IMG/VR virus record: IMGVR_UViG_3300007734_000853
Span: 1 to 27,406 of that record
Source: a virus
DNA length: 27,406 nucleotides
Reading direction: 5' to 3' (one strand)
The notes under the pieces are model-generated. The model was not told where the DNA came from. It saw only the letters and a list, made by a program, of their open reading frames with translations, and did no database searches. The number at the start of each line of letters is the position of its first letter. Position 1 is the first letter of the stretch. Made by a program: the position numbers and the translations under genes. Positions 3,745 through 20,713 of this stretch are shown here, piece by piece.

Positions 3745-4104
3745 TTGGATTATGTTTTCACCGGATGCGATTTGAACCGCATTGGTTGCATGCGTGATTT
3801 GGCGGAAAGATTGGTGGTGGTGGACATGGGAACGGATGACGTGTTCAACGTCACCATTGAATTGGTCACGGGTTCATGGTCAACCGCGGTGGCGCACATT
3901 CACTATGCCAATGCGTTGACCGGGCCCTGGGTTGATTTCACAAACAATTTGCGTTTCACAAGTGCGGATAGAACAACGGGATTAGTTGCGCATATCGGGC
4001 GATATGTGCGCGTTGAGGTGACCACAACACCCGGCGCGGAATGTCGCGTTGATGTCATCGTACACACGCGCCGGAGCGCGATTGGCCAAGAGGTTTTGGT
4101 ATGA
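3745..4104 (+). CDS. Small unrecognised tail-operon protein, TTG start
   Basis: The 119-residue protein starts at TTG directly after the previous stop codon. The sequence GGGGAGG at 3733-3739 gives one of the better ribosome binding sites in this half of the window, with five bases between it and the TTG, so this start is well supported. There is no ATG start close by. The protein looks like a single beta-rich domain (alternating VFNVTIELVTGSW and GRYVRVEVTT strands) with three Cys, and it could be a carbohydrate-binding or tail accessory module, but I cannot name a family. It overlaps the next gene by ATGA at 4101-4104. Confidence 0.66.
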   Translation: MDYVFTGCDLNRIGCMRDLAERLVVVDMGTDDVFNVTIELVTGSWSTAVAHIHYANALTGPWVDFTNNLRFTSADRTTGLVAHIGRYVRVEVTTTPGAECRVDVIVHTRRSAIGQEVLV

Positions 4105-4802: not shown

Positions 4803-4981
4803 TGCCCGTTGTTTGGATCATCGCGTGCATCCGTGATCATTCGTTGGTCGATGACGATTCCCAACCGTTCGTTGATGAATTTTGGTCGGATCCCGCGGCA
4901 TGGGCGGCGAAATATTCCGCGTTGGAACCCGCGGAACACAAGGCAATTGAATTGATTGTGGCGGATTTGTCCGGGGCATGA
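4802..4981 (+). CDS. Small hypothetical protein (59 aa)
   Basis: This is a 59-residue acidic protein starting at the ATG at 4802, which overlaps the previous stop as TGATG; a GTG at 4799 would add one residue. A G-rich stretch (GGGGGATAGG) just upstream may serve as the ribosome binding site. The sequence (MPVVWIIACIRDHSL...) has a short hydrophobic start followed by an acidic helical part with several aromatics. No family is recognised. It is kept because it fills the space between two coupled genes and has the same TTG-leucine codon use as its neighbours. Confidence 0.55.
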   Translation: MPVVWIIACIRDHSLVDDDSQPFVDEFWSDPAAWAAKYSALEPAEHKAIELIVADLSGA

Positions 4982-5040
4982 TTGAATCAGGTTGGTATAT
5001 TGGGCATGTGCCAACGTCGGCACGGGCCGATTGGCGATGA
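4978..5040 (+). CDS. Possible 20-residue peptide gene
   Basis: An ATG overlapping the previous stop (ATGA at 4978-4981) opens a 20-residue frame (MIESGWYIGHVPTSARADWR) that ends at 5040. The only support is that it fills the 74-base gap between 4981 and 5056 and copies the ATGA coupling seen throughout the operon. It may instead be a means of carrying ribosomes to the next start. There is no independent evidence of a product. Confidence 0.25.
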   Translation: MIESGWYIGHVPTSARADWR

Positions 5041-5055
5041 ACAGCGGGGTGAACA

Positions 5056-5919
5056 ATGGCGGTGGAATATTTAGTAGACGGCGCAACAACGTTCGCATCA
5101 ACATCGTGGTTGACCGCATCCGGTTCCGCGGGTTCCGGATTCGTAAACACCGCTGAATTGATTGTTCCGGGCGGTGGCGCATCGATCACCGCCGGATTGG
5201 ATCAATCCGCGGCGACATCAACGGGCATTCGGTATTTGATCATTTCCGAAAGTTATTCCGGCAACGTCGGTGACGCATCAACACCGTTGATCACAGAGGC
5301 CACCGACGGAACCGCGGCGGAATGGCGTTCGGACAATACTGAGGGCCGCATTGAACACAACGGAACGGGAACGTTGTTTGTAAAGGGCGACACCAACGGC
5401 ATTGATAATTTGATGCAAAACGGCGCGGGCCGAACGTTGTTGACCGACGGAACCGCAACATATGTGCGAGTGCAACGCGGGACGTTCCAAAACACTGGCG
5501 CATCAACGGTGACAAATTGCACGGTACTTGGCGGAACAGCCAACATCGTGGCCAAATCGACATCCAACACCGCCGGAACATTGTTGAATTTATACGGTGG
5601 CGCGGCGACGATTGCGCGTCCGTTCACAACAATCAACGTTTATGGTGGCGTGTTGACCATCAATGTGACGCAGGCCGCGGCGGTGTCCGCGACAATCAAC
5701 CAATTTGGCGGAACCGTGGTGTTGTTGGCGCACGGCAACAACGGAATCACAACCTACAACCACAATGGCGGGTTGTTTGATCCGTCGCGATTGCGCGTTG
5801 ATACAACAATTGCAACCTATATCCGCCAATTCGGAGCGCAATTCACCGCACGCCCGAACGGTGCGCCGTTGACAATCACCAACACATACCGGAAAGATCC
5901 AAACGTCGGGCCCATCTAA
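5056..5919 (+). CDS. Beta-helix-like repetitive tail protein (possible tail fibre or spike)
   Basis: The 287-residue protein is low in charge and dominated by Thr, Gly, Asn, Ala and Val. From about residue 105 to 260 it shows loosely repeating units of about 20 residues with patterns such as VRVQRGTFQNTGA, VTNCTVLGGTAN, LNLYGGAATI, INVYGGVLTINV and INQFGGTVVLL. Repeated 'x-N-x-Y/F-G-G-x-x-x-I' turns are typical of parallel beta-helices in phage spikes and fibres. No catalytic site is apparent. The start is the ATG at 5056 with AGCGGGGTGA upstream. The stop overlaps the next start (TAATG). A receptor-binding or depolymerase-scaffold role is inference. Confidence 0.68.
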   Translation: MAVEYLVDGATTFASTSWLTASGSAGSGFVNTAELIVPGGGASITAGLDQSAATSTGIRYLIISESYSGNVGDASTPLITEATDGTAAEWRSDNTEGRIEHNGTGTLFVKGDTNGIDNLMQNGAGRTLLTDGTATYVRVQRGTFQNTGASTVTNCTVLGGTANIVAKSTSNTAGTLLNLYGGAATIARPFTTINVYGGVLTINVTQAAAVSATINQFGGTVVLLAHGNNGITTYNHNGGLFDPSRLRVDTTIATYIRQFGAQFTARPNGAPLTITNTYRKDPNVGPI

Positions 5920-7148
5920 TGCCCAACCAAATATTGAGGCAACAAACGCGGTTGAACATCCGCAACAATCGGTTGGTGTTGAACAACACCGGGATCGATT
6001 GTTGTTGCACGAATACGCAGGCGATTCGGTTCCGCGAATGTTGCACGGGTTCACCGTCAATTTGGGTGTTGGCGGACATACTCACACAATACATCACCGC
6101 CATTCGGTACGGTGGCCGATGCTACTCGCGAACCACCGAAACCGTTTTGGTTTCGGATTTGGAAAAGCGTGGAATCGATTGGTTGCAAACATTGGACGGC
6201 GACACAATCCCGTTGTTTGGCAATTGCGGAACGTTGGTTGATTCCGGCCATTGCCCGCCATGCGAACCGCCAACCGATGAATGCTGTTACCGCGTCAACC
6301 GCGCCGCGTGTCGCGTGATTGCGGCGACGGGTCAACCGTACGATTCGCCGGAATGTTGCGTGTTGGGGTCCGGGTATCAATTGACGCGAACCGAAACGGT
6401 TTCGTTCATTCGATTTGGCGCGGGCTATCAACGTCGCACGGATGTTTTGTGTGACCCGTACATTTTCGACACCGCCGCGCCGTTGGAACAATACAACGAA
6501 ACGCACACAACGATTGGCACCGCGGTATGTCCGTCGCAATCTTTCGTCGGTTCGCAAACCTATTCCAAACGCGGTGTGCGTTGGGTGAATGACGGTTTCG
6601 ACGTATTCGGCTCAAACGTCATTCCGCGGAATCCGCGATACATCAACACCGACGCGGATTGGACGCGGCAGGATGTGTTTGATGTTCAGCCGGATCGGTC
6701 ACCATTGGGAACGTTTATTGGGTTCCCTCTCCCCTATTTGTATCTTCCGGAACGCAATCCCGATCCGAACATGCCGCCTCTGTTGTCGATTTGCGATGGG
6801 GAAACGTCGGTGCGTCAGGATTTGAACAACGATGGCAACAACGAATTGGAATTTGATGCGCGCGTGACGGGCGCGTTTTCATGCACATCCGGACGTGTGG
6901 AATACGTTTCAACGGAACGTACGTTGTTTTGTTCCGATTTGGACAACCGCCCGTTTTATGTGACCGAACGTTGGCGGCAAACAATCGAATGGCAAATTCG
7001 GAACATCCAACGCGACCGTTGCACAATCGCGGAATGCAATGAATTAGGACGGATGCCGGACGAAAACGCATTGATCGGAACGCGAACGAATCCGATTGCG
7101 CAACGTGAAACGCGTTGCCAATCATGCCGCGAACAACCGGGGTTGTGA
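5919..7148 (+). CDS. Cysteine-rich virion-associated protein (23 Cys)
   Basis: This is a 409-residue protein with 23 cysteines, many adjacent: CCC at residues 28-30, CC pairs near residues 41, 126 and 152, and CxxC-type pairs including HCPPCEPPTDECC and the C-terminal CQSC. A calcium-loop-like D-x-N-x-DG-x-x-E motif lies at bases 6819-6845. There is no signal peptide or membrane segment. The Cys pattern could bind metal or form disulfides after release of the particle. Its position near the end of the tail operon suggests a tail tip or fibre component, but I recognise no family. It is coupled to the previous gene (TAATG). Confidence 0.68.
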   Translation: MPNQILRQQTRLNIRNNRLVLNNTGIDCCCTNTQAIRFRECCTGSPSIWVLADILTQYITAIRYGGRCYSRTTETVLVSDLEKRGIDWLQTLDGDTIPLFGNCGTLVDSGHCPPCEPPTDECCYRVNRAACRVIAATGQPYDSPECCVLGSGYQLTRTETVSFIRFGAGYQRRTDVLCDPYIFDTAAPLEQYNETHTTIGTAVCPSQSFVGSQTYSKRGVRWVNDGFDVFGSNVIPRNPRYINTDADWTRQDVFDVQPDRSPLGTFIGFPLPYLYLPERNPDPNMPPLLSICDGETSVRQDLNNDGNNELEFDARVTGAFSCTSGRVEYVSTERTLFCSDLDNRPFYVTERWRQTIEWQIRNIQRDRCTIAECNELGRMPDENALIGTRTNPIAQRETRCQSCREQPGL

Positions 7149-7538
7149 TTGGATCCGCACACGATGACACAAATAGGATTGGAACGCGTCATTGGTTTGG
7201 CGCGTGATGGGCGTTTGGAAACGCGGTGGTTGTGGGCCGCGGTTCGCGGCGGTTGGCGGTATGTGTGGGCGGTTGCCGCGGGCGATATTGCGGACGATGC
7301 AACCGCCGCGCAACGCGTCCGAACATGCGCGGTATGTGATGCGGCGGACACCGTGCAAACATCGCGTGCGGGTTTGTGCGCTGTTTATTGCGGAACGGGA
7401 ACCGCGACGGCATCCGGGCCGACGTGCGGTTGTTTGGTCGGCATCACCCGCGACGGCAACCCGATTGAACCCGCGGGGAAGGTTGTTGTTGCGTCCGAGT
7501 CATGCCCGCGGGCGCGGTGGTCATCGGTCACGCGTTGA
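7149..7538 (+). CDS. Small zinc-ribbon-like protein ending the tail operon
   Basis: The 129-residue protein starts at a TTG immediately after the previous TGA; an ATG at 7164 is an alternative that removes five residues. The C-terminal half has the order C-x2-C (residues about 60-63), C-x3-C, C-x-C and finally ESCP-x3-W. This arrangement recalls a small phage and bacterial zinc-ribbon type in which CxxC is followed by CxC and a terminal 'CPxxKW'. Here the terminal Lys is replaced by Arg (CPRARW). The gene overlaps the convergent methyltransferase gene by 11 bases (7528-7538), so the two operons meet tail to tail with no room for a separate terminator. Function unknown. Confidence 0.62.
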   Translation: MDPHTMTQIGLERVIGLARDGRLETRWLWAAVRGGWRYVWAVAAGDIADDATAAQRVRTCAVCDAADTVQTSRAGLCAVYCGTGTATASGPTCGCLVGITRDGNPIEPAGKVVVASESCPRARWSSVTR

Positions 7539-8919
7539 ACAGGTTGTGTGCGGATCCGATCCGGGCCGCGGCGATGTCACAAAAGCCCGTTGATAGGTCG
7601 ATGCCAACGAAACGGAACCCTTCCGCAATTGCCGCCTTTCCCGTTGACCCTGAACCCATGAACGGATCCAATACGGTTCCGCCGGGAGGTGTGACCAATC
7701 GACACAACCACCGCATCAAATCATTGGGTTTGACGGTTGGGTGGTTGTTTCGGCGTTGCAATGGTTCAGCACGCAACGAACCATCCAAATCGCCCGTTCG
7801 TGAACCCGCATCACGCAACGGCAACGATTCGCATCCATCATCCCGATCCGTTGCATCCGCCTTGGCGCAATAAAAGAAACGCGCGGCGGAACCGTTGCCT
7901 TCATCCGGCATCAACCGCACAACCTCTTCCGAACCATCGTGAACAACGTTCGCGGGCCATCGACCCGGCGGATTGATTCGCGCAAATGTTCGGTTGTCTT
8001 TTTGATATATTCCATTTTTTCCGCTGTTGCCATTGCGAATCGTTGTTGTTTGTTCGTTTCCAATCCTACAACCATCGATGTTCAACGCGCCGCATCCGTG
8101 TTCAACAACATTGCCCGCAACGGTCATGCCCGCGGCGATAGGTTTGCGGCACACCAACACGGGTTCCCATGCGGGTTTCAACGCGGTTCCCCAACCTTCC
8201 CACCGCGCCGCGTCGTTTGTGAATGCTGTTGTGATGTCACCTTTGGATCGTCCCAAACGTTGACCGCCTAAACCGCCCATGTCTGAAACATATTTGCCAA
8301 CAACCTTTCTTTGTTTCGTATTTTTACTTTCAACACTACGGATGTCGCATTCACGTTCGACCCATTCCGGAACATCGTTGAACAAATGACGGCACGCCTC
8401 CAAATGTTCACGCGTCATGATTGCGGGTTGTGATTCATTCGCGGTGTAATGTCCGCCCATTTGTGTTTTTGTCGCATCATCTATTTGTTTTGCCGTGACA
8501 TTTTGCGAACGAACCCACGATGTGAACCGCAAACGTCGTTTGCGTTGTTCATCCGTGGCATCCATTTTGTCAATCGCCTTCCCGATATTGTGCGATTTTG
8601 GGAACCCCATCCCATGAACCCACATCACGCAATCACGGATTTCCCAACCCGCATCTTCAATTGCGCACGCCAACCGATGGAACATCCGCGTTCCGCCAAA
8701 CGCCAACAAATGCGCGCCGGGTTTCGCAACGCGCAACGCCTCAACCCAAAACGGTGAACCCGGCACGCCACGATCCCAATCTTTTCCCATGAACGACAAC
8801 CCGTAGGGTGGATCCGTCACAATCGAATCAATCGATTCCGCGGCCATGCCGCGCATGATGTGCAAACAATCACCGTTGAACAATTCCCACATCTTCCCCG
8901 TTGCGTGCGGCGTGTTCAT
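7528..8919 (-). CDS. Site-specific DNA methyltransferase, beta class (N6-adenine or N4-cytosine)
   Basis: The 463-residue enzyme would transfer a methyl group from S-adenosylmethionine to an exocyclic amino group of adenine or cytosine. The catalytic motif IV DPPYG is at residues 36-40. The SAM-binding motif I (DPFMGSGSTG) is near the C-terminus at about 418-427, followed by a GID strand. Catalytic region first and SAM region last is the beta-class order. The DPPY form favours N6-adenine. The long middle part (about 110-350) would hold the target recognition domain. The ATG overlaps the stop of the upstream small gene (ATGA). No partner restriction nuclease is adjacent, so it is probably an orphan enzyme protecting or marking phage DNA. 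It is the last gene of the leftward operon. Confidence 0.9.
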   Translation of the reverse strand: MNTPHATGKMWELFNGDCLHIMRGMAAESIDSIVTDPPYGLSFMGKDWDRGVPGSPFWVEALRVAKPGAHLLAFGGTRMFHRLACAIEDAGWEIRDCVMWVHGMGFPKSHNIGKAIDKMDATDEQRKRRLRFTSWVRSQNVTAKQIDDATKTQMGGHYTANESQPAIMTREHLEACRHLFNDVPEWVERECDIRSVESKNTKQRKVVGKYVSDMGGLGGQRLGRSKGDITTAFTNDAARWEGWGTALKPAWEPVLVCRKPIAAGMTVAGNVVEHGCGALNIDGCRIGNEQTTTIRNGNSGKNGIYQKDNRTFARINPPGRWPANVVHDGSEEVVRLMPDEGNGSAARFFYCAKADATDRDDGCESLPLRDAGSRTGDLDGSLRAEPLQRRNNHPTVKPNDLMRWLCRLVTPPGGTVLDPFMGSGSTGKAAIAEGFRFVGIDLSTGFCDIAAARIGSAHNLFNA

Positions 8920-9080
8920 TGCGATTCCCTTTCGCGTTGTCGCAACATGCGTTCAAACTTGCGTTGTTGTTGTTTGGCGCGGGTGTCACACACCGCACAT
9001 GGCGCGGTGTTGCGTTTGCCGTTCCGCCATTTGCCGATTGTGCGCCGTCCGGTGTTGTCGCAATACGGGCATTTTGTCAT
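8916..9080 (-). CDS. 54-residue zinc-ribbon peptide
   Basis: This short gene is joined by ATGA overlaps to both neighbours (9077-9080 and 8916-8919). It encodes 54 residues with C-P-Y-C at residues 4-7 and C-A-V-C at 28-31, a four-cysteine zinc ribbon of the treble-clef or DnaJ-like spacing, followed by a basic tail (KQQQRKFERMLRQRERE) suited to nucleic acid binding. The N-terminal CPYCDNTG turn is typical of such ribbons. It lies directly before the methyltransferase, so it may be a regulator or accessory DNA-binding factor; that is inference. Codon use matches the operon. Confidence 0.7.
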   Translation of the reverse strand: MTKCPYCDNTGRRTIGKWRNGKRNTAPCAVCDTRAKQQQRKFERMLRQRERESQ

Positions 9081-9292
9081 TGTTTGATTCCTAAGAAATG
9101 CCCGTACCGATCACGCAACAGCGGCACGCGGCGGATTTCATTGCGCAATTCATCCGCAATATATTTCATGGCGCGGCGTTCCAAATAGGCCACATCCATT
9201 GGTTTCATGTTCAGCACTTTTCCAATTTCGGAAAATGACATGCACCATTCAATTGGTTCATTCGTCGTCGGGTTCATCGGTATTCGTTTCAT
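9077..9292 (-). CDS. Sigma-70 region-4-like HTH protein B
   Basis: I choose the ATG at 9292 (71 residues); a TTG at 9310 and an ATG at 9277 are alternatives. Residues about 18-50 (SFSEIGKVLNMKPMDVAYLERRAMKYIADEL) resemble the region 4.2 helix-turn-helix of sigma-70 factors, where 'EIG..L......V..IE..A...I' recognises the -35 element. The protein is far too short to be a complete sigma factor. It aligns with the product of the upstream gene over its whole HTH and in a shared YGH-x-[IL]-G ending, so the two are paralogues. It might modify host RNA polymerase promoter choice or act as a simple repressor. It overlaps the next gene by ATGA and the previous one by about 35 bases. Confidence 0.7.
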   Translation of the reverse strand: MKRIPMNPTTNEPIEWCMSFSEIGKVLNMKPMDVAYLERRAMKYIADELRNEIRRVPLLRDRYGHFLGIKQ

Positions 9293-9491
9293 CGTTCGGT
9301 TCCCTGCCAATCACATGACCATACAACCGCGCCAAACGCGGATCGGCGCGAATGGCCGCCCGTAAACCTTCCTGAATCTTTCGGATTGCATCCCGTTCAA
9401 TCCGCCCCGCAAGGTTGCGATTGATTCCCATTTGACGGGCCGCCTCCCCCAACGTCATCAACGGGCGCAATGTTGGTTTTCGTTGGCGCAT
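9258..9491 (-). CDS. Sigma-70 region-4-like HTH protein A
   Basis: The preferred start is the ATG at 9491 (77 residues), which lies 95 bases inside the RusA gene; upstream GTG/ATG codons at 9518 and 9512 would lengthen the overlap. Residues 13-45 (LGEAARQMGINRNLAGRIER followed by DAIRKIQ) form a sigma region 4.2-like HTH, and LYGHVIG near residue 58 matches the YGHFLG of its downstream paralogue. The last 15 residues are acidic (DETNTDEPDDE). Known roles of free-standing sigma-4-like domains include anti-sigma and transcription-appropriation factors, but nothing here distinguishes these from an ordinary DNA-binding repressor. Confidence 0.68.
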   Translation of the reverse strand: MRQRKPTLRPLMTLGEAARQMGINRNLAGRIERDAIRKIQEGLRAAIRADPRLARLYGHVIGREPNDETNTDEPDDE

Positions 9492-9846
9492 CAATGATTC
9501 CGATCCTGACATACACACGCCCGCCGCGCATCACATGCCCGCGTGTTATCGTCAATTCATCAATTTGTTCATCATCTTTCCACACGCCCGCGTGTGTCAA
9601 CGCATCCAACAACGCTTTGGTGAAATTGTCCAAATCGCGTTTGCGTTTGTCCGGTGGGTGCAACGTCAAATGAACGCGCAACCGTTGATCCAACGGTGTG
9701 AAACCATCGAAATGACAACGCAATGACATCACAACCTGTTCACGGAACGAACGCCCGCGCCGCGATATCAACACACGCGCCCCGAAACGCATGCGCACGA
9801 ACCGCCAATATTGATTCACCGATGGCGGGAACGGAACGAAAAACAT
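9397..9846 (-). CDS. rusA: RusA-family Holliday junction resolvase
   Basis: RusA cuts four-way DNA junctions formed during recombination and replication. The 149-residue protein has the N-terminal PPSVNQYWR strand and turn, and the catalytic acidic signature R-D-L-D-N-F-T-K at residues 70-77 with Asp71 and Asp73, followed by VWKDDEQI (Asp91/Asp92) and the closing strand. These match the conserved acidic residues of the family. RusA is usually about 120 residues; here the frame continues about 30 residues beyond the core (after about residue 118), and this extension lies inside the overlap with the next gene. A very good Shine-Dalgarno sequence (AAGGGAGG) sits upstream, inside the small gene at 9816-9944. 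Confidence 0.88.
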   Translation of the reverse strand: MFFVPFPPSVNQYWRFVRMRFGARVLISRRGRSFREQVVMSLRCHFDGFTPLDQRLRVHLTLHPPDKRKRDLDNFTKALLDALTHAGVWKDDEQIDELTITRGHVMRGGRVYVRIGIIDAPTKTNIAPVDDVGGGGPSNGNQSQPCGAD

Positions 9847-9944
9847 GCCGCGCCTCCCTTCCCAAACATCAACGCGTGTGATGCCACAAACGCAACGGGC
9901 AATCCGAGTGCAATCAACAGCACGATTTGCAATGCGTCATTCAT
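9816..9944 (-). CDS. 42-residue single-pass membrane peptide
   Basis: This short gene starts at an ATG overlapping the stop of the nuclease gene (ATGA at 9941-9944) and ends 31 bases inside rusA. The product has a hydrophobic helix at about residues 5-22 (LQIVLLIALGLPVAFVA) and a short basic tail ending FSFRSRHR. It could be a small membrane protein, or a leader whose translation carries ribosomes past the rusA Shine-Dalgarno sequence that it contains. The coupling and the hydrophobic run are seen directly; any function is unknown. Confidence 0.5.
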   Translation of the reverse strand: MNDALQIVLLIALGLPVAFVASHALMFGKGGAACFSFRSRHR

Positions 9945-10432
9945 TCCACCGCCTCCAACGGATTCACCGCGATTGGCCGCAACAATTCATTGGGAATCCA
10001 CACAACCAAATCGGTGGGATCGTCCGGATCGTTCGCGCGGTCATTGCGTTTGAAATAGGAAAGGCGCAAATCAACAGGGCGTTTCGTGATCCAACACCAT
10101 TCCCAATCACGCGGACGCGCCCAACGGATATCCCAACCGCCGCGTTCCGGCCAACGCCAAACGATGAACGCGGGCCGATTATGTTTCACGTCCCAATCCA
10201 ACACCGCGCGCGCCTTGTGCAAATCGACCATTTGCCGCGGGTATTTCTTTGATAGGTTTTTGATTTCGATTGCGCAAACCGTCGGGCCATCGGGCGTGCG
10301 TTGCGCGGTGTAGTCTATAAACGCGAATTCCTCACCCTCCACCAAATGCGGAACGCCCCATGTCCGCGCAATCACCGCGGCGGTTTTGCGCTGTTCAATC
10401 CGAAACATTTCGTTGTCGTGTTTCATCGTCAT
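9941..10432 (-). CDS. Putative PD-(D/E)XK-superfamily nuclease
   Basis: The start is the ATG at 10432, overlapping the previous stop (ATGA); the longer frame from 10483 would run into the upstream gene. The 163-residue protein has a spaced set of residues that fits a PD-(D/E)XK nuclease core: Glu13 in the first helix (RIEQRKTA), Asp40 in FAFIDY, then E56-I-K58 in VCAIEIKNLSKKYP, followed by a helix (DLHKARAVLDWDVKHNRPAFIVW). The EIK strand and its distance from Asp40 are the main evidence. It lies just upstream of RusA, so a role in DNA processing or recombination is likely. The exact family is not known to me. Confidence 0.62.
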   Translation of the reverse strand: MTMKHDNEMFRIEQRKTAAVIARTWGVPHLVEGEEFAFIDYTAQRTPDGPTVCAIEIKNLSKKYPRQMVDLHKARAVLDWDVKHNRPAFIVWRWPERGGWDIRWARPRDWEWCWITKRPVDLRLSYFKRNDRANDPDDPTDLVVWIPNELLRPIAVNPLEAVE

Positions 10433-10737
10433 CCCACATGCACGGTGTAAACGTTGCCGCGGCCATCGAACCGTTTTTCCCATGTCAACAAGCCCGCGGC
10501 GCGGGCGTGTTTCAACATTCCGATTGTTGTTTGGCGGGTGCGACCCGGTGCAATCAATTCACCAATGGGAACCCGTATCGTGATGTCACGGACAATGCCA
10601 CCATCCGGAATACGGTTCCGCAATCCGGCCATGGCAATTTGAATGACCAACAGCGCGGCACGCGGGCGCGAATGACGCAACGCCCGCATGCCGTTGTTTT
10701 GCATCAACCGTTCCAATGTTTCCCAATTGATATTCAT
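10429..10737 (-). CDS. Winged-helix DNA-binding protein
   Basis: I start the gene at the ATG at 10737, which overlaps the previous stop (ATGA), giving 102 residues. The C-terminal half reads as a winged helix: a helix containing IPIGELIAP-like residues (RVPIGELIA), a recognition helix (RTRQTTIGMLKHARAAGLLTWEK) and a wing with a glycine turn (FDGRGNVYTVHV). Such domains are common in phage replication initiators and transcription regulators. At this size it is more likely a regulator or a replication accessory than a complete initiator. It ends with ATGA overlap onto the nuclease gene. Confidence 0.66.
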   Translation of the reverse strand: MNINWETLERLMQNNGMRALRHSRPRAALLVIQIAMAGLRNRIPDGGIVRDITIRVPIGELIAPGRTRQTTIGMLKHARAAGLLTWEKRFDGRGNVYTVHVG

Positions 10738-10955
10738 TCGATTGGCCGTGTGATGCAATCAACCGCGGCCATTGCCGCGTTGTATCGGTTGACGATGCGG
10801 AACAATTCAACGATGTTGGCCGGATTGGTTCCCGTTGACGGATCCAACGCGCGCGCGCTTTGGTGCATGGTGTCAACCAATGCGCCGATGTCGCGTGCGC
10901 ATTGACAAACCCCGTTCCGATCCGCGGCGCGGCCATGGCATGTTTTGCATGTCAT
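10734..10955 (-). CDS. 73-residue zinc-ribbon protein, first gene on the left side of the composition junction
   Basis: The protein starts MTCKTCHG and has CxxC at residues 3-6 and C-x-C at about 17-19, a small zinc-binding knuckle, followed by a helical part. The body has the AG/CT-poor, TTG-leucine composition of the left half, but its ATG and Shine-Dalgarno sequence (GGAG, 8-9 bases upstream) lie in a 21-bp repeat whose composition is that of the right half. The start is therefore exactly where the two sequence types meet, and its upstream region may not be the native one. It overlaps its neighbours on both sides by ATGA. Confidence 0.62.
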   Translation of the reverse strand: MTCKTCHGRAADRNGVCQCARDIGALVDTMHQSARALDPSTGTNPANIVELFRIVNRYNAAMAAVDCITRPIE

Positions 10956-10972
10956 CGCTCATCCTCCAATGC
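10952..10972. repeat. 21-bp direct repeat, copy 1, at the composition junction
   Basis: Bases 10952-10972 are identical to 11227-11247 (tcatcgctcatcctccaatg plus a final c). On the minus strand each copy contains GGAGG, a spacer and ATGA, so each is a complete translation start site. The left-hand half of the window's composition ends at this copy. Confidence 0.9.
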
Positions 10973-11230
10973 GTTCAGGGTGTCGGTGTTGGTGATCGCT
11001 TGCAGGATTCGGTTGCGGTCTTCTTCGCCAAGCGTATTGAAGAGCATGTCTTCACGTTCGTCGGCATCACGCCACGCCCGAACCTCGTTGCGAAGTGCTT
11101 CGAGTTTGCGCATAGTCACCGCATGTCCATAGCGCAAGCGTTCGTACTGCTTACGCAACTCGTCCAACTCTTCAAGAGTCATTCGATAATCTTCGAGATC
11201 ATAAAATCGCTCGTCGCTTTCTTCGCTCAT
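10952..11230 (-). CDS. Small coiled-coil protein with EVRAWR motif, copy 1
   Basis: The 92-residue, highly charged, mostly helical protein has heptad-like spacing (LEELDELRKQYERLRYGH...). It shares a segment with the product of the upstream gene: LRNEVRAWR here against LVDEVRAWR there, with a following N-x-RIL element, so the two look like diverged duplicates. The ATG at 11230 has a strong Shine-Dalgarno sequence (GGAGG) that is part of the 21-bp repeat. Its last codons form the other repeat copy, which supplies the start of the next gene. Function unknown. Codon use is that of the right half. Confidence 0.66.
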   Translation of the reverse strand: MSEESDERFYDLEDYRMTLEELDELRKQYERLRYGHAVTMRKLEALRNEVRAWRDADEREDMLFNTLGEEDRNRILQAITNTDTLNALEDER

Positions 11231-11247
11231 CGCTCATCCTCCAATGC
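11227..11247. repeat. 21-bp direct repeat, copy 2
   Basis: This is identical to 10952-10972. It provides the ribosome binding site and start codon of the gene at 10952-11230 and encodes the last codons of the gene at 11234-11491 in another frame. The flanking bases differ on both sides. Confidence 0.9.
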
Positions 11248-11491
11248 TCGAACCTTGGATCCCAGGAACATCACGCAAGATCCGCGACGCGTTTGTCTTC
11301 GCGACGGCTTCGATTACGGGGTTCATCCGCTCCATGTTTCCCGGCGTATACCAGAACGCGCGCCAGGCGCGGACCTCATCGACCAGGATACGAATCTGCT
11401 CCGCTTGCGCTTTCATAATCTCGAGCGCTTCATCGATGATCGCGGAGTTACGCTCGAGAACCTTCGCGACGTCTATTTCTTTCTGTTCCAT
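11234..11491 (-). CDS. Small coiled-coil protein with EVRAWR motif, copy 2
   Basis: The ATG at 11491 is preferred because GGGAG lies five bases upstream; a GTG at 11497 overlapping the previous stop (GTGA) is the alternative. The 85-residue protein is mainly helical (VLERNSAIIDEALEIMKAQAEQI) and shares the DEVRAWR and SRIL elements with the downstream gene product. No domain of known function is visible. It lies in the same leftward operon as the lysozyme, so a late or lysis-related role is possible but unsupported. Confidence 0.64.
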   Translation of the reverse strand: MEQKEIDVAKVLERNSAIIDEALEIMKAQAEQIRILVDEVRAWRAFWYTPGNMERMNPVIEAVAKTNASRILRDVPGIQGSSIGG

Positions 11492-11493
11492 AT

Positions 11494-11754
11494 TCACTCC
11501 CAGAAACCAAGTTCACGCGCGGCTTTTATGCTCCGCGACTCCATGAGAAACACCAAGTAAACCGACGCGATCCATCCCGCAACGCGCTTCTCCGCGTCCT
11601 GCTTCGGGTCTTTGCTCCATTCCGCAAAGATGATCGTTATTTTCGCGATCGTATCCGGCGACATGGTTTCAAATGCTTCGCGCAATTCTTCGCGCGCTTG
11701 ATCGTTCTCTGCGATCAGACTCGCGAGCAGGTTTCGACGCGTACTGTTATCCAT
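11494..11754 (-). CDS. Small helical protein (86 aa)
   Basis: The start is the ATG at 11754, two bases after the lysozyme stop, with GGAGG seven bases upstream inside the lysozyme gene. The product is helical and acidic at the start (LLASLIAENDQAREELREAFETM), and has a moderately hydrophobic helix near residues 58-70 (VAGWIASVYLVFLM) which is short for a membrane span but could associate with membranes. I do not recognise a family. Given its position next to the lysozyme, a holin-like or antiholin-like role is conceivable but weakly supported. Confidence 0.6.
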   Translation of the reverse strand: MDNSTRRNLLASLIAENDQAREELREAFETMSPDTIAKITIIFAEWSKDPKQDAEKRVAGWIASVYLVFLMESRSIKAARELGFWE

Positions 11755-11756
11755 GT

Positions 11757-12173
11757 TCAATCCTCCATTGCATCTTCGACCTTCGACCAATATTCCAGCG
11801 TGGCATCCTTTCGATAACCACGAGGCCCGCCGTTATGGATCCTCGCAAGATCCTTCGCGCTCTTACCCTTGCCGTATCGACTTAGATACGCAATGACCAC
11901 ACGCCGGGCGTACTTCTCATCGGTGCGGCAGTCCTCGTACTTGCCGGCCTTGAGCGATGGATCAAACTCACAAGCGTCGATCCAGTAGGCCTTCCAGATC
12001 TGATACATGCCGATTGCCTTCCCGTTATCGCCGTCCTTCACGTTTGGATCGTCGGTCGATTCGACAAAGCGAATCGCATCGAGGAGCGCATCCGTCAGCG
12101 CCGGCGGCCTCGGGCCTGCGAACGCCAAAGCGTTGAGCGATGCGACGATGATGAGTGCGTAGATGGTTCTCAT
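11757..12173 (-). CDS. Exported invertebrate-type (i-type) lysozyme homologue, phage endolysin
   Basis: The enzyme would cleave the glycan strands of peptidoglycan. The ATG at 12173 overlaps the previous stop (ATGA) and begins a Sec-type signal peptide (MRTIYALIIVASLNALAFA, likely cut before Gly20), so export would not need a holin pore. The mature part carries landmarks of the metazoan i-type lysozyme/destabilase family: Glu38 (VES) at the place of the catalytic Glu, Asp47 or Asp49 near the place of the catalytic Asp, then IGMYQIWKAYWIDA, the helix VIAYLSRYG, the strongly conserved LARIHNGGPRG and the closing YWSKV. It has only two Cys, against many disulfides in animal members. A general SLT-type transglycosylase is the alternative, but the IHNGGP and YWID motifs argue for i-type. 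Confidence 0.82.
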   Translation of the reverse strand: MRTIYALIIVASLNALAFAGPRPPALTDALLDAIRFVESTDDPNVKDGDNGKAIGMYQIWKAYWIDACEFDPSLKAGKYEDCRTDEKYARRVVIAYLSRYGKGKSAKDLARIHNGGPRGYRKDATLEYWSKVEDAMED

Positions 12174-12379
12174 GACTTCACCTCGCTCTTGCGCACGTAC
12201 TGGTACTGGTGCGGTGCGATCTTGACGAGCGTCCATTCACCCTTGGCGATGCGCTCACGAGCGGCTTGCAGATCAGCTTCGCTCGGTTCGCCGAAGCGAT
12301 CTTCCATCATGCTCAACATCCGATCCTGATGGTCAATCGCTCGGTCATTCGGGTAATCTCGATAATGCGCCTCGTTCAT
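12170..12379 (-). CDS. Small hypothetical protein upstream of the lysozyme (69 aa)
   Basis: This is the first gene of the leftward operon. The ATG at 12379 is preceded by AAGGATGGAAGTA, which provides a ribosome binding site; upstream ATG codons at 12388 and 12412 lack suitable spacing. The acidic protein (DYPNDRAIDHQDRMLSMMEDRFGEP) ends in a beta hairpin-like segment (EWTLVKIAPHQYQYVRKSE). No family is recognised. It overlaps the lysozyme by ATGA. A promoter with good -35 and -10 boxes is 57-85 bases upstream. Confidence 0.62.
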   Translation of the reverse strand: MNEAHYRDYPNDRAIDHQDRMLSMMEDRFGEPSEADLQAARERIAKGEWTLVKIAPHQYQYVRKSEVKS

Positions 12380-12435
12380 TACTTCCATCCTTCCTGTAAA
12401 CTTCCAGAACATTGCGCCTTATTTGCACCTTACTC

Positions 12436-12464
12436 AGTCTATATCGGCTGTCGCCGCGCGTCAA
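12436..12464 (-). promoter_or_regulatory. Sigma70-type promoter of the leftward lysozyme operon
   Basis: On the minus strand, TTGACG (12464-12459) and TAGACT (12441-12436) are separated by 17 bases, close to the sigma70 consensus. Transcription would begin near 12429 and reach the ATG at 12379. It lies just left of the terminator at 12481-12511, so this operon is insulated from leftward transcription coming from the DnaA-IV-like gene. Confidence 0.6.
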
Positions 12465-12480
12465 CTTCAGCCAAAAAAGA

Positions 12481-12511
12481 AAAACCCCGACGAGGCGATT
12501 GTCGGGGTTTT
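12481..12511 (-). terminator. Rho-independent terminator of the DnaA-IV-like gene
   Basis: An 11-bp perfect inverted repeat (AAAACCCCGAC / GTCGGGGTTTT) has a 9-base loop. On the minus strand the stem is followed by a long T run (TTTT then TCTTTTTT), so it is strongest leftward and ends the transcript of the gene whose stop is at 12565. On the plus strand there are only four Ts, so it may act weakly in that direction. Confidence 0.8.
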
Positions 12512-12564
12512 CTCGCTTCCTTGCGGGACTTGTTGCCGATCACTCGATCCGGTCGGCGTCGGAT

Positions 12565-12855
12565 TCAGGATCTCATCGACCACGGCGCGACGTCGCCGTG
12601 AAGCTTGGTATATAGGCGCATCGGATATAGAAGAGAAGTGTGGCCTGCTTGACCGCAAGAAAGCGCGATCTGCTGCAGCGTCAACGCCGGGCAGTCCATA
12701 TCGTGATGCGCTCGCATGAGCGCGAACACGTGGCCTCGCGCTACCGTCGCTCGATGCGTTCTCGGCGCTCGGAATATCTGCGCGCTGTAGCCTGCGCGAG
12801 CGAGCGCGGCATCTCTGATCTTCGTCACATATGATCGGGGGATTGTGGAAATCAT
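12565..12855 (-). CDS. Small HTH protein resembling DnaA domain IV
   Basis: The 96-residue protein corresponds to the C-terminal DNA-binding domain of DnaA alone, with no AAA+ part. Residues about 40-80 match its pattern: R40 and a helix (GHVFALMRAHHD), then LTLQQIALSCGQAGHTSLLYPMRLY, where L-x-x-I-A and G-x-x-x-x-HTS correspond to the 'slp.IG..fg.rDHTTV' signature that reads the DnaA box. The ATG at 12855 is five bases from a -10 box, so the message is probably leaderless. The gene is transcribed leftward from a promoter overlapping that of the rightward replication operon and has its own terminator, so it is placed as a regulator of that switch or of replication initiation. The region from 12380 to 12564 holds only the promoter and terminator. 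Confidence 0.65.
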   Translation of the reverse strand: MISTIPRSYVTKIRDAALARAGYSAQIFRAPRTHRATVARGHVFALMRAHHDMDCPALTLQQIALSCGQAGHTSLLYPMRLYTKLHGDVAPWSMRS

Positions 12856-12860
12856 GCGAC

Positions 12861-12889
12861 ACAATACGCCTCGACTTGACAGCGGGCAA
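12861..12889 (-). promoter_or_regulatory. Leftward promoter of the DnaA-IV-like gene
   Basis: On the minus strand TTGCCC (12889-12884) and TATTGT (12866-12861) are 17 bases apart. The -10 box ends six bases before the ATG at 12855, so the transcript should start at or almost at the start codon. Its -35 box lies within the spacer of the rightward promoter, and the two cannot easily be occupied together. Confidence 0.5.
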
Positions 12890-12904
12890 GCGGGCGGATA
12901 TCTT
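12876..12904 (+). promoter_or_regulatory. Rightward promoter of the replication operon (leaderless)
   Basis: TTGACA (12876-12881) and TATCTT (12899-12904) are separated by 17 bases. The ATG of the first gene is at 12911, which is where transcription should begin, so the message is probably leaderless; no Shine-Dalgarno sequence precedes the ATG. The spacer contains the direct repeat GCGGGC-AA-GCGGGC (12882-12895), a candidate operator. Confidence 0.65.
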
Positions 12905-12910
12905 TCTTGC

Positions 12911-13300
12911 ATGACAAATATCAACCCAACGCTCGGCGATCTCATTCGTGCATGGAAGGCTCAGAAGTTTCTACTCGAAGAGTGCGAGGCGCAATCGAAG
13001 TCGGCGCGTTCATTGCTCGTCGATATGGAGTCAAACATTGAATCCAAGATGAAAGATCTTGGCATCGACAGCGCATCCGAAGATGGCGTGTCGGTGACTA
13101 CGAAAACCAAGTGGCGAGCGAAGTATGAGCCTGAGATGTGGAGCGATATCGTGAAGTGGGCGGCGAGTTCCGGCCTCGACTACGTAGTGCAACGCCGCCT
13201 GAATGACGCAAAGATCATGGAGCTTGTCGATAACGGCGTGCCGTTGCCGCAAGGCCTGACAGTTGAAAGCTATAACGATCTCGCATTCCGTCGCTCGTAA
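12911..13300 (+). CDS. Conserved phage early protein of unknown function
   Basis: The start is the ATG at 12911, directly downstream of the promoter; the longer frame from 12845 would begin upstream of the transcription start. The 129-residue protein has an N-terminal helical half (LIRAWKAQKFLLEECEAQSKSARSLL) and a C-terminal half ending VQRRLNDAKIMELVDNGVPLPQGLTVESYNDLAFRR. From memory this C-terminal block recurs in small proteins encoded before the replication genes of many tailed phages, but I know of no assigned activity. It heads the rightward replication operon. Confidence 0.75.
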   Translation: MTNINPTLGDLIRAWKAQKFLLEECEAQSKSARSLLVDMESNIESKMKDLGIDSASEDGVSVTTKTKWRAKYEPEMWSDIVKWAASSGLDYVVQRRLNDAKIMELVDNGVPLPQGLTVESYNDLAFRRS

Positions 13301-13365
13301 GCGGCACGAGATCAAACGCGGCAGGGCCCGATCAGCGTAAATCGAGCGGGCGGAGATTCAAGCGT

Positions 13366-14061
13366 ATGAGTACAAAAAACATCACCAAGCACAATCAAGG
13401 CGAACTCGCACCGAGCGAACTGCCCGACGATCTGCGCGGCGGCTTGACCGTCGAGGGCGGCGAATCGTCGCCGCAGCTCGGTCGCATTGCCATGTATCAG
13501 GGCACGTCGCAGGAACAGCAGAAGTACGGAGAGGGCGTGTTCAAGCGCGGCGACTTCATCGACGTGCTCGAAGGCCGCAAGCTCGCCACCTCGCGCATCG
13601 TCGTAGTGCATTGCGAAGTGATCTATCAACGCTGGGACAAAGATCAGGCTCGCCCGGCCTACACCTACACGCACGCGCAACGCAACTTGATCCCTGCTGA
13701 AGATCTCGAATGGGACGGCGAGCTCCCGCCTGCCTGCGCGAAGATGTATCGCTGTATCGTCCTTGTTGACGGTGAGCCTTGGCCTTATCTCTTCATCGTC
13801 AAGCGCACGATGATGAAGGCCTTCGATCATCTGCTCGCGCTCGAAGCACGTCGCACGGCAACTCAGCGCGGATCGGGACTCTACGAACTCGGTGCTGAAG
13901 ATGAGAAGAACGCGGCGGGCAATAGCTACAAGCGTTTGACCGTTCGCCCGATAGGTGACATTCCCGCTACGATGTTCGATGTCTATCGCGCCGCGAAGCG
14001 TGGCATCGAGTCGATCCGCGCCAAGGCCGCGCAGGATGAAGAAGGCTGGCTTCCGATCTGA
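13366..14061 (+). CDS. Conserved phage replication-operon protein, possible ssDNA-binding function
   Basis: The 231-residue protein starts at an ATG with GCGGAG about ten bases upstream. It has the layout GRIAMYQGTSQEQQKYGEGVFKRGDF..., IDVLEGRK, then LVDGEPWPYLFIVKRTMMKAFDHLLALEARR and a closing VRPIGDIPATMFDVYRAAKRG. This resembles a conserved phage family encoded near helicase and primase genes, sometimes suspected to bind single-stranded DNA, but I cannot confirm that activity from motifs. There is no membrane segment. The gap of 90 bases to the next gene contains only its ribosome binding site. Confidence 0.7.
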   Translation: MSTKNITKHNQGELAPSELPDDLRGGLTVEGGESSPQLGRIAMYQGTSQEQQKYGEGVFKRGDFIDVLEGRKLATSRIVVVHCEVIYQRWDKDQARPAYTYTHAQRNLIPAEDLEWDGELPPACAKMYRCIVLVDGEPWPYLFIVKRTMMKAFDHLLALEARRTATQRGSGLYELGAEDEKNAAGNSYKRLTVRPIGDIPATMFDVYRAAKRGIESIRAKAAQDEEGWLPI

Positions 14062-14151
14062 CCCCCTTTGCGTCGTGTTGACGCATCCCCGCAGGTCGTC
14101 GCATCGAAAGATCGGCGGCCTGATTCACCCCCAACGAGAAAGGAATAGCAG

Positions 14152-14379
14152 ATGGAAGCAGGATCGTTCGCCTATCTACGCCTCAAGATCGTCGGAGAAA
14201 TCGACGATCCGAAGGAGCCGTTCTATGACGGGCCTCGCAAGATCTGCGCACCGATGAATAGTCGCGGCGAGATCATCGAGCCCGTGACGCTCTACTACGT
14301 CAAGCCTGAGCAACTGGTCAGCGTCGAAACAGTCAAGGCCGAACGCGATGCGGCGCGTGATGCCGCTCGCACAAACTGA
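14152..14379 (+). CDS. Small hypothetical protein (75 aa) in the replication operon
   Basis: The ATG at 14152 is preceded by GAAAGGA, a Shine-Dalgarno form used repeatedly in this half (also before 14392, 18112 and 21035). The protein has a beta-rich first half (FAYLRLKIVGEID, VTLYYVKPEQLVSV) and a short helical tail (VKAERDAARDAAR). It could be a small OB-like or SH3-like domain, but no family is recognised. It lies 12 bases before the helicase-methyltransferase gene. Confidence 0.66.
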   Translation: MEAGSFAYLRLKIVGEIDDPKEPFYDGPRKICAPMNSRGEIIEPVTLYYVKPEQLVSVETVKAERDAARDAARTN

Positions 14380-14391
14380 AAGGAATAGACA

Positions 14392-16695
14392 ATGGAATAT
14401 GAGAGTTTCATCCAAGGCAAGCACATCGTCACAGAGAAGCACGGCATCGCCGCGCGAGATATCAATGGCAATCTATTCGACTGGCAAGCAACAGTCGTGC
14501 AATGGGCTTGCAAGACCGGACGCGCGGCGATCTTCGCCGACTGCGGACTCGGCAAGACGATCATGCAACTTGAATGGGCGCGCCAGATGTCAGGCAATGG
14601 TGAAGCGTTGATCCTCACGCCGCTTGCCGTTGCTGAACAAACGCTCGCTGAACACAAGAAGTTCGGCATTCAATGCTCGGCCCGCATCGTTTCAAACGAT
14701 TCCGATATCGGCCCCGGAATCAACATCGCAAACTACGAACGCTTGCACAAGTTCAACGCCGCAAGATTCCGTGCCGTTGTGCTCGATGAATCGTCGATCC
14801 TCAAGTCTTATATGGGTAAGACCAAGCAACAGCTCTTGAAGGCGTTCGCTGATACTCCATATCGACTTGCTTGCACGGCTACTCCGGCCCCAAACGATCA
14901 CCTTGAGCTTGGCAATCATTGCCAGTTTCTAGGCCACATGGATAGCTACGAGATGATCGCGCGATGGTTTCAGAATGATCTCATGTGCGCAGGCAAGTAC
15001 ACGCTGAAGCCTCACGCGGCGAAGGACTTCTGGAAGTGGGTATCGACTTGGGCAGTCTCACTTTCAACACCGAGCGATATCGGCGGATGCGATGAAGGGT
15101 ACAAGTTACCCAAGCTCAACGTCGAGAAGATCACGATCGCCGCGCCTCTCAACACTGCGACAAGCGACGCGCTCTTTGTCGATGGTGATCTGTCGGCGAC
15201 GGCATTGCATAAAGAGAAGCGCCGGACTTGCGAACTTCGCGCAGATCGCGCCGCTGAGATCGCCAAGAAAGCGAAAGGCCCAGTCATTGTTTGGTGTGAC
15301 ACTGACTACGAAGCTGATGCGCTGATCGCAAGAATGCCTGAAGCCGTCGAAGTCAGAGGATCGCACAAGGACGAAGACAAACGCGCAAGACTCGCGGCAT
15401 TCACGAGCGGCGAGAAGCGCATCATCATCACAAAGCCTGAAATCGCAGGCTTTGGATTGAACTGGCAACACTGCGCCGATGTGATATTCGTCGGGCTCAG
15501 TTACTCATTCGAGCGTTTCTATCAAGCGGTACGGCGTTCGTATCGCTTTGGACAGAAGAGGCAAGTCAATGTGTACGTCATCGAAGCTGACACCGAATCG
15601 GCGATCGCCGCAAACGTCAGCACGAAAGCGATCGCACACGAAAGCCTCAAGAACTCTATGACTCAAGCAATGAAGGATGCACAGATGGACGAGATTCATG
15701 GTCGCCGCCGTTTGATCGAGATCGCCGAACCCGTCAAGCACGAGGGGGATCGTTGGACACTCTTCGAGGGCGATTGCGTCAAGACCGCAAGCAAGCTCGA
15801 AGATAACTCGATTCATCTCTCTGTCTATTCGCCGCCTTTCGAGAACCTATACGTCTATTCCGATTCGATGGCGGACATGGGCAACTCGAAAGATTCCGAC
15901 GAGTTCTTTGCACACTACATTTATCTCATCCGAGAGATGTACCGAATCACCATGCCGGGCAGATTGTCAGTCGTGCATTGCAAGGATCTTCCCGCTTACA
16001 TGGGCCGCGACGGCGCGGCAGGATTGAAGGACTTCCCCGGCAAGATCATTCAAGCTCACGAGGCTTGCGGCTGGCAGTTTCATTCGCGCGTCACGATCTG
16101 GAAAGACCCAGTAATCGAGATGCAACGCACCAAAAATCACGGTTTGTTGCACAAGTCGCTCTGCGACGATTCATGCAACTCGCGGCAGGGAATGGCTGAC
16201 TACCTTGTCGTATTCCGAAAGTGGGACGGCAAGGATGAAGGATTCCCTGAGCCTGTGCAGGGACACTCTTCACAAGTGCGATTCAAGCGCGGCGAATACG
16301 TCGGCGAGAACGCACCGCATTGGCAAGACTCAGATCGTCTCAATTCGATCAACGTATGGCAGCGATATGCATCGCCTGTCTGGCTTGATATCCGTCAAAC
16401 GAACGTCTTGCAATATCGAGAAGCACGCAATGAAGATGACACCAAGCACATCTGCCCGCTTCAGCTCGATGTGATCGAGCGATCCATTCACCTCTGGAGC
16501 AATTCCGGCGATCTCGTCATGTCGCCCTTCACTGGCATCGGAAGCGAAGGATATTGCGCAGTCAAGATGAATCGTCGTTTCGTCGGATCAGAACTGAAGC
16601 CTGAATACTGCAAGGTAGCTGTCAAGAATCTCCGCAAGGCCGAACGCATGAGCGATGTCGGCGCTGACTTGTTCGTCGGATCGGAGGACGCATGA
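14392..16695 (+). CDS. SNF2-type helicase fused to a DNA methyltransferase
   Basis: The 767-residue protein joins two enzymes. Residues about 30-420 are an SF2/SNF2 translocase: Walker A CGLGKT at 51-56, DES at 132-134 (motif II), TATPAPN (motif III), GFGLNWQHCADVIF (motif V) and QAVRRSYRFGQ (motif VI). Residues about 450-760 are a beta-class methyltransferase: the catalytic motif S-P-P-F at 480-483 and the SAM motif SPFTGIGSEG from 711. S/TPPx motifs are usual for N4-cytosine enzymes, but N6-adenine remains possible. The fusion suggests an enzyme that moves along DNA while methylating, perhaps to protect replicating phage DNA; this is inference. It overlaps the next gene by ATGA. Confidence 0.88.
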   Translation: MEYESFIQGKHIVTEKHGIAARDINGNLFDWQATVVQWACKTGRAAIFADCGLGKTIMQLEWARQMSGNGEALILTPLAVAEQTLAEHKKFGIQCSARIVSNDSDIGPGINIANYERLHKFNAARFRAVVLDESSILKSYMGKTKQQLLKAFADTPYRLACTATPAPNDHLELGNHCQFLGHMDSYEMIARWFQNDLMCAGKYTLKPHAAKDFWKWVSTWAVSLSTPSDIGGCDEGYKLPKLNVEKITIAAPLNTATSDALFVDGDLSATALHKEKRRTCELRADRAAEIAKKAKGPVIVWCDTDYEADALIARMPEAVEVRGSHKDEDKRARLAAFTSGEKRIIITKPEIAGFGLNWQHCADVIFVGLSYSFERFYQAVRRSYRFGQKRQVNVYVIEADTESAIAANVSTKAIAHESLKNSMTQAMKDAQMDEIHGRRRLIEIAEPVKHEGDRWTLFEGDCVKTASKLEDNSIHLSVYSPPFENLYVYSDSMADMGNSKDSDEFFAHYIYLIREMYRITMPGRLSVVHCKDLPAYMGRDGAAGLKDFPGKIIQAHEACGWQFHSRVTIWKDPVIEMQRTKNHGLLHKSLCDDSCNSRQGMADYLVVFRKWDGKDEGFPEPVQGHSSQVRFKRGEYVGENAPHWQDSDRLNSINVWQRYASPVWLDIRQTNVLQYREARNEDDTKHICPLQLDVIERSIHLWSNSGDLVMSPFTGIGSEGYCAVKMNRRFVGSELKPEYCKVAVKNLRKAERMSDVGADLFVGSEDA

Positions 16696-18101
16696 CACTG
16701 AAACTCTTCGCGCATCAGGAGCGATGCGTACGGGCAATGATGCTCAACGCGCGATACGGCCTGTGGCTTGAGCCGGGAATGGGCAAGACCATCACTACGC
16801 TTGAAGCGATCAGGCGCGATGCCGAGATGAACGGCGGTGCGATGCGCACCGTCGTCGTGTGCCCGAAGTCGATCATGTCAACGGCATGGATGAAAGACGC
16901 GCAACACTTCAAGACATCGCTCGATGTGCGCGTGCTTGCATCCGACTCGCCTGCGAAGCGAATCGAGAACATCGAATCAAGAAGCTGGAACGTCGGCCTC
17001 ATCAACTTCGACCAGTTCAAGATGCTCGCGGCGAAGCTCATCGAATCAGGCGTGAAGCGCCTCGTGATCGACGAATCCTCGAAGATCAAGAACCACGACA
17101 GCCAGATCACCAAGGCGGCTATCTGGTTCGCTGATCGCATGGAGTCGGTGTGGTTGCTGTCCGGCACGCCTGCGCCGAACTCGCCGATCGAATACTACGG
17201 GCAGATCCGCGCGATGCGCCGTGATATCTGCGGCGATCTCTACTGGCGTTGGGTGCACTCGATCGCAACGGCACGCAAGGAGCGTGTCTGGCACAAGCCG
17301 CGAAACGCAAGGCCGCGCCAGATCGAAGTGATATCGGGCTGGTCGCAGAACGAGGCGCAGCGCCTCGAGCTTGAACGCCAGCTCGGCCTGTGCAGTATCG
17401 CCATGCGTAAAGTCGATGCGCTCGATCTTCCGAAGCAGCGGGATATCGTGCGCGTCGTGGAGCTTGATGAACGAGAAGCGAAGATGTATCACGATGCGGC
17501 GCATCTCCTTCGCGTGCAACTGCGACAAGGTGACAGCGAGAAGATCAACGCCGAAGCCGCACTCATGAAGCTACGCCAGATCACGGGCGGATACTTCATC
17601 GACAACGGAACGCCGATCAAGATCGGAGGATCGAAGCTTGATAGCCTGAATGAATTGCTCGATGAGATCGGCCCGCAACCGTGCCTGATATGGGCCGAAT
17701 TCCGGCACGAGATCGACGCGATCGTCGCGCTCTGCAAAGAGCGCAAGGAATCGACCGAGTACATCGACGGCAGAACGTCAGGCGATGCAGGCTCGATCGC
17801 CTCGCGCTTTCAGGCAGGCGAGATCCAGCGACTCATTTGTCAGCCGATGGCGGCAGGGCACGGCATCACGCTGACCAAAGCGCACTATGCGATCTACTAC
17901 TCACTGGGCTTTAGTTATGAATTGTTCAAGCAGTCGCGCGATCGCATCCATCGAGTCGGGCAGGATCAGCCGTGCACCTATTACATCTTGACGGCTGAGG
18001 ACACAGTAGACGAGGCCGCGTACGGTGTAGTACGCGGCAAAGGCAAGGTGAGTGATGCATTGCTCGCCGTTCTATCGGGTAACATGAAGGCCCTGAATTG
18101 A
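16692..18101 (+). CDS. SNF2-family (SF2) DNA helicase/translocase
   Basis: This 469-residue ATPase of the SF2/SNF2 type would track along duplex or branched DNA during replication or recombination. Motifs in order: Q-motif-like FAHQ at 6-9, Walker A GMGKT at 29-33, IDES at 126-129, SGTPAPN, MKLRQITGG, then QPMAAGHGITLTKAHYAIYYS (motif V) and QSRDRIHRVGQ (motif VI). It is a distant relative of the helicase half of the preceding gene (LDESS/IDESS and TPAPN in both), so the operon carries two SNF2 motors. GGAGG lies just before the ATG, which overlaps the previous stop (ATGA). No nuclease domain is visible. Confidence 0.88.
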   Translation: MTLKLFAHQERCVRAMMLNARYGLWLEPGMGKTITTLEAIRRDAEMNGGAMRTVVVCPKSIMSTAWMKDAQHFKTSLDVRVLASDSPAKRIENIESRSWNVGLINFDQFKMLAAKLIESGVKRLVIDESSKIKNHDSQITKAAIWFADRMESVWLLSGTPAPNSPIEYYGQIRAMRRDICGDLYWRWVHSIATARKERVWHKPRNARPRQIEVISGWSQNEAQRLELERQLGLCSIAMRKVDALDLPKQRDIVRVVELDEREAKMYHDAAHLLRVQLRQGDSEKINAEAALMKLRQITGGYFIDNGTPIKIGGSKLDSLNELLDEIGPQPCLIWAEFRHEIDAIVALCKERKESTEYIDGRTSGDAGSIASRFQAGEIQRLICQPMAAGHGITLTKAHYAIYYSLGFSYELFKQSRDRIHRVGQDQPCTYYILTAEDTVDEAAYGVVRGKGKVSDALLAVLSGNMKALN

Positions 18102-18111
18102 AAGGACAAGC

Positions 18112-20664: not shown

Positions 20665-20713
20665 CCAAACAAACTCCGCACCATTGCGGACATACTGGTA
20701 GGGAGTGCGGTAG

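Follow-up and report, generated by a model that had tools for sequence, protein, structure and literature searches.

A viral contig that most probably joins two related freshwater phages inside one small common gene through an assembly error, and a phage lineage starved of AG and CT

The stretch analyzed here (the window) covers positions 1 to 27,406 of the IMG/VR virus record IMGVR_UViG_3300007734_000853. It is an incomplete linear contig that begins in a tail tube gene (1) and ends in a portal gene (27406), and its left half contains PHROG matches to a major tail protein, N6_N4_Mtase, and RusA. The terminase, portal, and major tail genes of the window, along with the capsid and prohead protease genes of a relative (contig G011), place it among the tailed phages (Caudoviricetes). 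A preliminary description of this DNA viewed the gene content of its halves as complementary, with tail genes on the left and packaging and replication genes on the right; this distribution stands, with the refinement that the right half is also devoid of capsid and tail genes. An imperfect inverted repeat with 43-nt arms (84% complementary) and a 25-nt loop lies downstream of the primase gene, at 20779-20889. Coordinates of the main features are given in Table 1.

Table 1. Features of the window, from left to right, with lineages A and B as described in the text.
Feature	Position	Strand	Remarks
Left (A-type) half, AG/CT-starved phage DNA	1-10951		rho(AG) mostly 0.15-0.18
Left half genes	1-10951		Tail tube, coiled-coil/tape-measure-like, tail genes, DNA methyltransferase, RusA, small genes
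Departure from near-clonal twin L002	8832-10353		5 mismatches in 1-8831; 96.8% identity from 8940
Left-type small gene MTCKTCHG...	10734-10955	-	Start codon inside repeat copy 1
Repeat copy 1, GCATTGGAGGATGAGCGATGA on the - strand	10952-10972	-	ALEDER-stop of gene 10952-11230, RBS GGAGG, ATG of gene 10734-10955
Foreign small gene, 92 aa, EVRAWR...NALEDER	10952-11230	-	Ordinary AG/CT; foreign within A context
Inferred common 296-bp segment (gene and both repeat copies)	10952-11247		Probable assembly crossover interval
119-bp identical match to one end of A-type contig G008	11129-11247		G008 AG-starved beyond the repeat
Repeat copy 2, RBS and start of gene 10952-11230	11227-11247	-	Upstream gene reads the copy out of frame (...SSIGG-stop)
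Right-type small gene	11234-11497	-	87% identical protein in CA/TG-poor lineage (G013)
Right (B-type) half, ordinary AG/CT	11248-27406		83-92% blocks to G005 between 11756 and 27402
Right half genes	11248-27406		Destabilase-family lysozyme-like, SNF2-methyltransferase, SNF2 helicase, primase, terminase, portal

The two halves have nearly equal G+C content and are separated by an abrupt step in AG/CT. Measured per kb, rho(AG/CT) is 0.15-0.18 (~0.17) in nine of the first eleven kb, rises to 0.27 and 0.41 where a coiled-coil gene lies (the two kb at 1-3 kb), and is between 0.84 and 1.10, with no gradient, from 11001 to 27406. A two-state changepoint analysis placed the step after base 10957 (log-likelihood ratio 439), with a support interval within 4 lnL of 10918-11023. 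This is the sharpness of a single gene and rules out a gradual change. The preliminary description had likewise proposed a sharp junction, as opposed to a gradual change, and had located it at a 21-bp repeat; the changepoint indeed falls within copy 1. Its counts of AG plus CT (1 in 10681-10957 and 11 in 10981-11100) were reproduced exactly, and the switch in leucine codons that it reported is evident from TTG, which accounts for 195/226 on the left and 55/350 on the right. Lysine AAG shows a similar pattern (27/105 in the left half and 240/275 in the right half). A change in ribosome binding sites had also been noted; some of the left sites, previously called weak, read GGGGG, the G.U-wobble counterpart of GGAGG.

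In order to place each half among its relatives, a step that the preliminary description had suggested, IMG/VR was scanned with one protein from each half and with a terminase alignment, an approach by which only close relatives are detectable. Both halves were found elsewhere, in contigs of uniform composition. Besides the left half of the window, lineage A contains nine contigs (L002, G002, G003, G004, L005, G008, L027, L028, and G011) from several samples, all AG-starved in every stretch measured (rho(AG) ~0.2); G003, G004, and L005 represent one strain from three samples. In the contigs of lineage B (G005, G006, L039-L043, and G016), AG is near 1. The terminases of A and B are 69-70% identical and gene order is collinear, indicating that the two are cousins; each lineage retains its own composition.

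The left half of the window is 99.5% identical to L002 over 1-10353 and 85-94% identical to G002, which is AG-starved over 24.7 kb. A second, subtler breakpoint occurs near the start of the methyltransferase gene, where identity to L002 falls from 99.9% to ~96.8%; it suggests recombination or strain switching among A phages, and may be a sign of strain mixing. G011 (~30.0 kb) has a 127-bp terminal repeat and is therefore very probably complete and circular. It encodes a capsid protein, a prohead protease, a PD-(D/E)XK nuclease, a weak RecT match, and a destabilase-type gene, and carries tail, replication, terminase, and portal genes together, AG-starved in every stretch measured. Both G002 and G011 pass straight across the counterpart of the junction into AG-starved replication and packaging genes. 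Among B contigs, G005 has ordinary DNA also to the left of its match to the window (11756-27402), and in G016 the portal is followed by tail genes of ordinary, non-starved composition. Since A and B contigs each continue with their own composition, the window joins an A left part to a B right part, a combination that it alone displays among the A and B contigs; all others are uniform.

The 21-bp repeat reported at the junction proved exact on recheck. In 200 simulated windows of the same two compositions, the longest repeats measured 13-20 bp, so a chance origin of the 21-bp repeat is unlikely. On the minus strand, the repeated word is the stop/RBS/start overlap of a tandem small-gene family, and the junction therefore resembles a start site. 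In copy 1, as in contigs G007 and G008, a small protein ends within the word (ALEDER-stop), which also contains a GGAGG site and the start codon of the following gene. Gene 10734-10955 had been characterized as having a left-type body and a right-type start; consistent with this, it contains 0.5 AG+CT per 100 bp and its start region is the repeat. Its protein has a 93% identical counterpart in G002. An exact-word scan of IMG/VR viral contigs recovered the word in two other contigs only.

The family of gene 10952-11230 is arranged in tandem, carries an EVRAWR-like motif, and has AG-starved members in the A genomes G008, G002, and G011. The first 34 codons of the gene are identical in G008. Apart from G008, its closest relative is found in G007, a 48.6-kb contig that otherwise differs greatly; identity is 93% over 136 bp, the word included, and G007 contains further relatives. 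At 45206-46007 of G007 (in L017), two nearby small genes match the N-terminal and C-terminal parts of gene 10952-11230 separately, which suggests module shuffling in the family. The CA/TG-poor cousin G013 matches window 11234-12173, but its counterpart of 11234-11497 is followed by a different gene, judged by eye to be DNA methyltransferase-like. Small genes of this region have thus been exchanged between lineages (93% over 136 bp for G007 and 76-85% for G013), and the relatives in G007 together with the differing neighbor in G013 mark the region as a small-gene exchange spot. The small-gene region of a B-type contig also contains a coding-like stretch of tandem repeats (RMSTAMRRSSALRRST...; L008 of G006, 52-563).

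Contig G008, an AG-starved A-type sequence from a sample other than that of the window, bears most directly on the junction. It is identical to the window at 119 of 119 positions (11129-11247); beyond the word come 98 bases from the beginning of gene 10952-11230, and there the contig stops. G008 thus enters the foreign gene from the side opposite to the left half of the window, implying a common 296-bp segment (10952-11247), which is longer than typical k-mers and reads. In A, the word that lies upstream of this gene is in frame as the ...INALEDER-stop of the adjoining A gene. The composition of the segment is not A-like (ln odds -47), and B is, weakly, the best of six composition models. The far end of G008 overlaps L002 at 98% upstream of window base 1, and combining the left part of the window, the segment, and G008 gives a ring estimate of 29.2 kb, near the ~30.0 kb of G011. 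The gene is absent from G002 and G011; in G002, homology to window 8940-10967 (90.6%) is followed by ~200 bp and then by DNA 93% identical to G008. In A, the segment is supported from both flanks (the window and G008), and in B by the window alone. The exact gene was not found beside the lysozyme-like gene in the B relatives G005 and G006. No contig spanning A-left, the gene, and A-right was found, and two scans by flank pattern added no other spanning contig. MEGAHIT uses k=119, and the 119-bp match at a contig end is only suggestive as a sign of an assembler k-mer.

We favor, with a probability of roughly 0.7, a composite window in which A (1-10951) and B (right of ~11247) were joined within the 296-bp segment by the assembler. 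An A strain would have acquired a 275-bp cassette, made up of the gene and one word, by recombination at the word. The import would be recent and the donor a phage of ordinary AG/CT composition, leaving the order A-right, word, gene, word, A-left. The same 296-bp segment would be present in a B phage from the same sample, and a short-read assembler failing to span these identical bases may have left A and continued in B. Because 296 identical bases in co-existing A and B genomes defeat short-read assembly and invite a chimera, we infer that the join is computational and not biological. The preliminary description had proposed either a chimera or recombination at the repeat. Two genomes do meet there, and the assembly join is the better of its two options; the shared short word that it named is probably not the exact route, since the 119 identical bases of G008 imply the 296-bp segment. 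Counting against a chimera are its low base rate and the position of the junction at a gene boundary, where real phage recombination often falls. In simulated viromes, chimeras represent <5% of contigs of at least 10 kb, and regions common to co-existing viruses are named as the cause (PMC5610896, PMC11443906).

The gene-boundary position, in a hypervariable small-gene region, would also suit a real recombinant, that is, a viable phage with an A tail and B replication and packaging genes that arose when A and B recombined in this region. Although the collinear gene order of A and B and the small-gene exchange seen with G007 and G013 make such an event conceivable, and although it would yield an identical sequence, we consider it unlikely. 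It needs a second, unseen junction between the portal (27406) and the tail tube (1), where A/B similarity is low; exact-word and protein scans of the searched IMG/VR records found the same combination in no other contig, and the remaining A and B contigs are all uniform. It is also improbable that the 21-bp word by itself produced the chimera, with an A strain lacking the gene and with the window and G008 as separate false joins. The exact word is present in both contexts, and G002 and G011 lack the gene, but a false join would be required in each of two samples, both times tying one A strain to one particular gene through a word much shorter than final k-mers usually are. A single natural genome whose composition natively falls into two regimes (early/late or strand-linked) would account for the complementary gene content and nearly equal G+C. 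This is highly improbable given the abrupt step, and is contradicted by relatives in which A-type replication, terminase, and portal genes are AG-starved (G008, G003, and G011) and B-type tail genes are not (G016).

What is new in these results lies with the AG/CT-starved lineage; the join, most likely, is artefactual. On the coding strand of A, the depletion extends to both AG and CT and to each of the three codon phases (observed/expected 0.13-0.30), with little influence of flanking bases except for AGG and TAG, indicating a DNA-level and not a codon-level effect. The depletion of both dinucleotides on the coding strand disfavors RNA-level selection. In the terminase, only four AG are kept in A from the 144 AG/CT sites of B; the B sites become AA, CG, GG, TT, GT, and AT, which is incompatible with a single mutation type (e.g., C-to-T at CT), and the replacements include two-step Ser AGY-to-TCN changes. 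GGGGG can pair with the anti-Shine-Dalgarno sequence CCUCC through G.U wobble. Of its 62 occurrences in five A sequences, 40 immediately precede a start codon, against a background of about 22%; in B, 1 of 13 does so. Gene starts in these counts are mechanical, and the five sequences are partly homologous regions, not all independent. The enrichment was noted in the A genomes G011, G002, G008, and G004 (L056/L057, L015/L016, L014, and L019). As a lead from these counts, GGGGG apparently replaces GGAGG in A as a wobble Shine-Dalgarno sequence compatible with AG avoidance.

AG/CT values range from 0.64 to 1.13 in 79 other phage contigs with a related methyltransferase and from 0.54 to 1.06 in sampled Phycisphaerae loci; the nearest cellular terminase relatives belong mostly to Planctomycetota/Phycisphaerae. 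Host composition was provisionally rejected as the cause, as the Phycisphaerae samples are only mildly AG-poor, and no host with the same AG/CT signature was found among the sampled loci. Other dinucleotides deviate in further terminase relatives: L032 and L033 have CA/TG at 0.57-0.59 with GA at 1.67, and L036 has CG at 0.67 with CA at 1.6. Judging from L031-L037, the dinucleotide signature seems to change rapidly among these phages. Tentatively, a DNA-directed activity, host's or phage-encoded, that attacks or mutates AG/CT almost free of context may have driven the rewriting of the A genome, including its ribosome binding sites. The B cousins, with 69% identical terminases, were not rewritten.

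The contig is unfit for use as one genome, and doing so would lead gene-sharing or host-prediction analyses astray. Lineage A, on the other hand, is reproducible, its close cousins without the avoidance provide a natural contrast on the forces that remove a dinucleotide genome-wide, and foreign DNA in it is visible at single-gene resolution. A limited literature search found no earlier description of an AG/CT-starved lineage, and to our knowledge this avoidance, comparable in strength to vertebrate CpG depletion, is one of the strongest in phages. Like the CpG depletion of vertebrates and their viruses and the restriction-site avoidance of phages, it is a genome-wide avoidance of a short word on both strands; it differs in that rho is ~0.17 whatever the codon phase and in almost every context.

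Among known phages and genomes, the terminase large subunit family is shared with distant Thermobifida/Streptomyces phages (38-41% amino acid identity) and with Phycisphaerae genomes (45-47%), also distant, whose sampled loci are not AG-starved. The junction resembles those of chimeric viral-metagenome contigs, in which co-existing related genomes are joined at an identical, unresolvable stretch (PMC5610896, PMC11443906), but differs in its five-fold dinucleotide step, which makes the join unusually conspicuous, and in that the common stretch appears to be a recently transferred small gene. As in the modular mosaicism of tailed phages, exchange takes place at gene boundaries among collinear relatives, here in a small-gene hot spot between the resolvase and lysozyme-like genes. 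The evidence here supports the exchange of a single 92-aa gene together with its RBS word, and not of half a genome.
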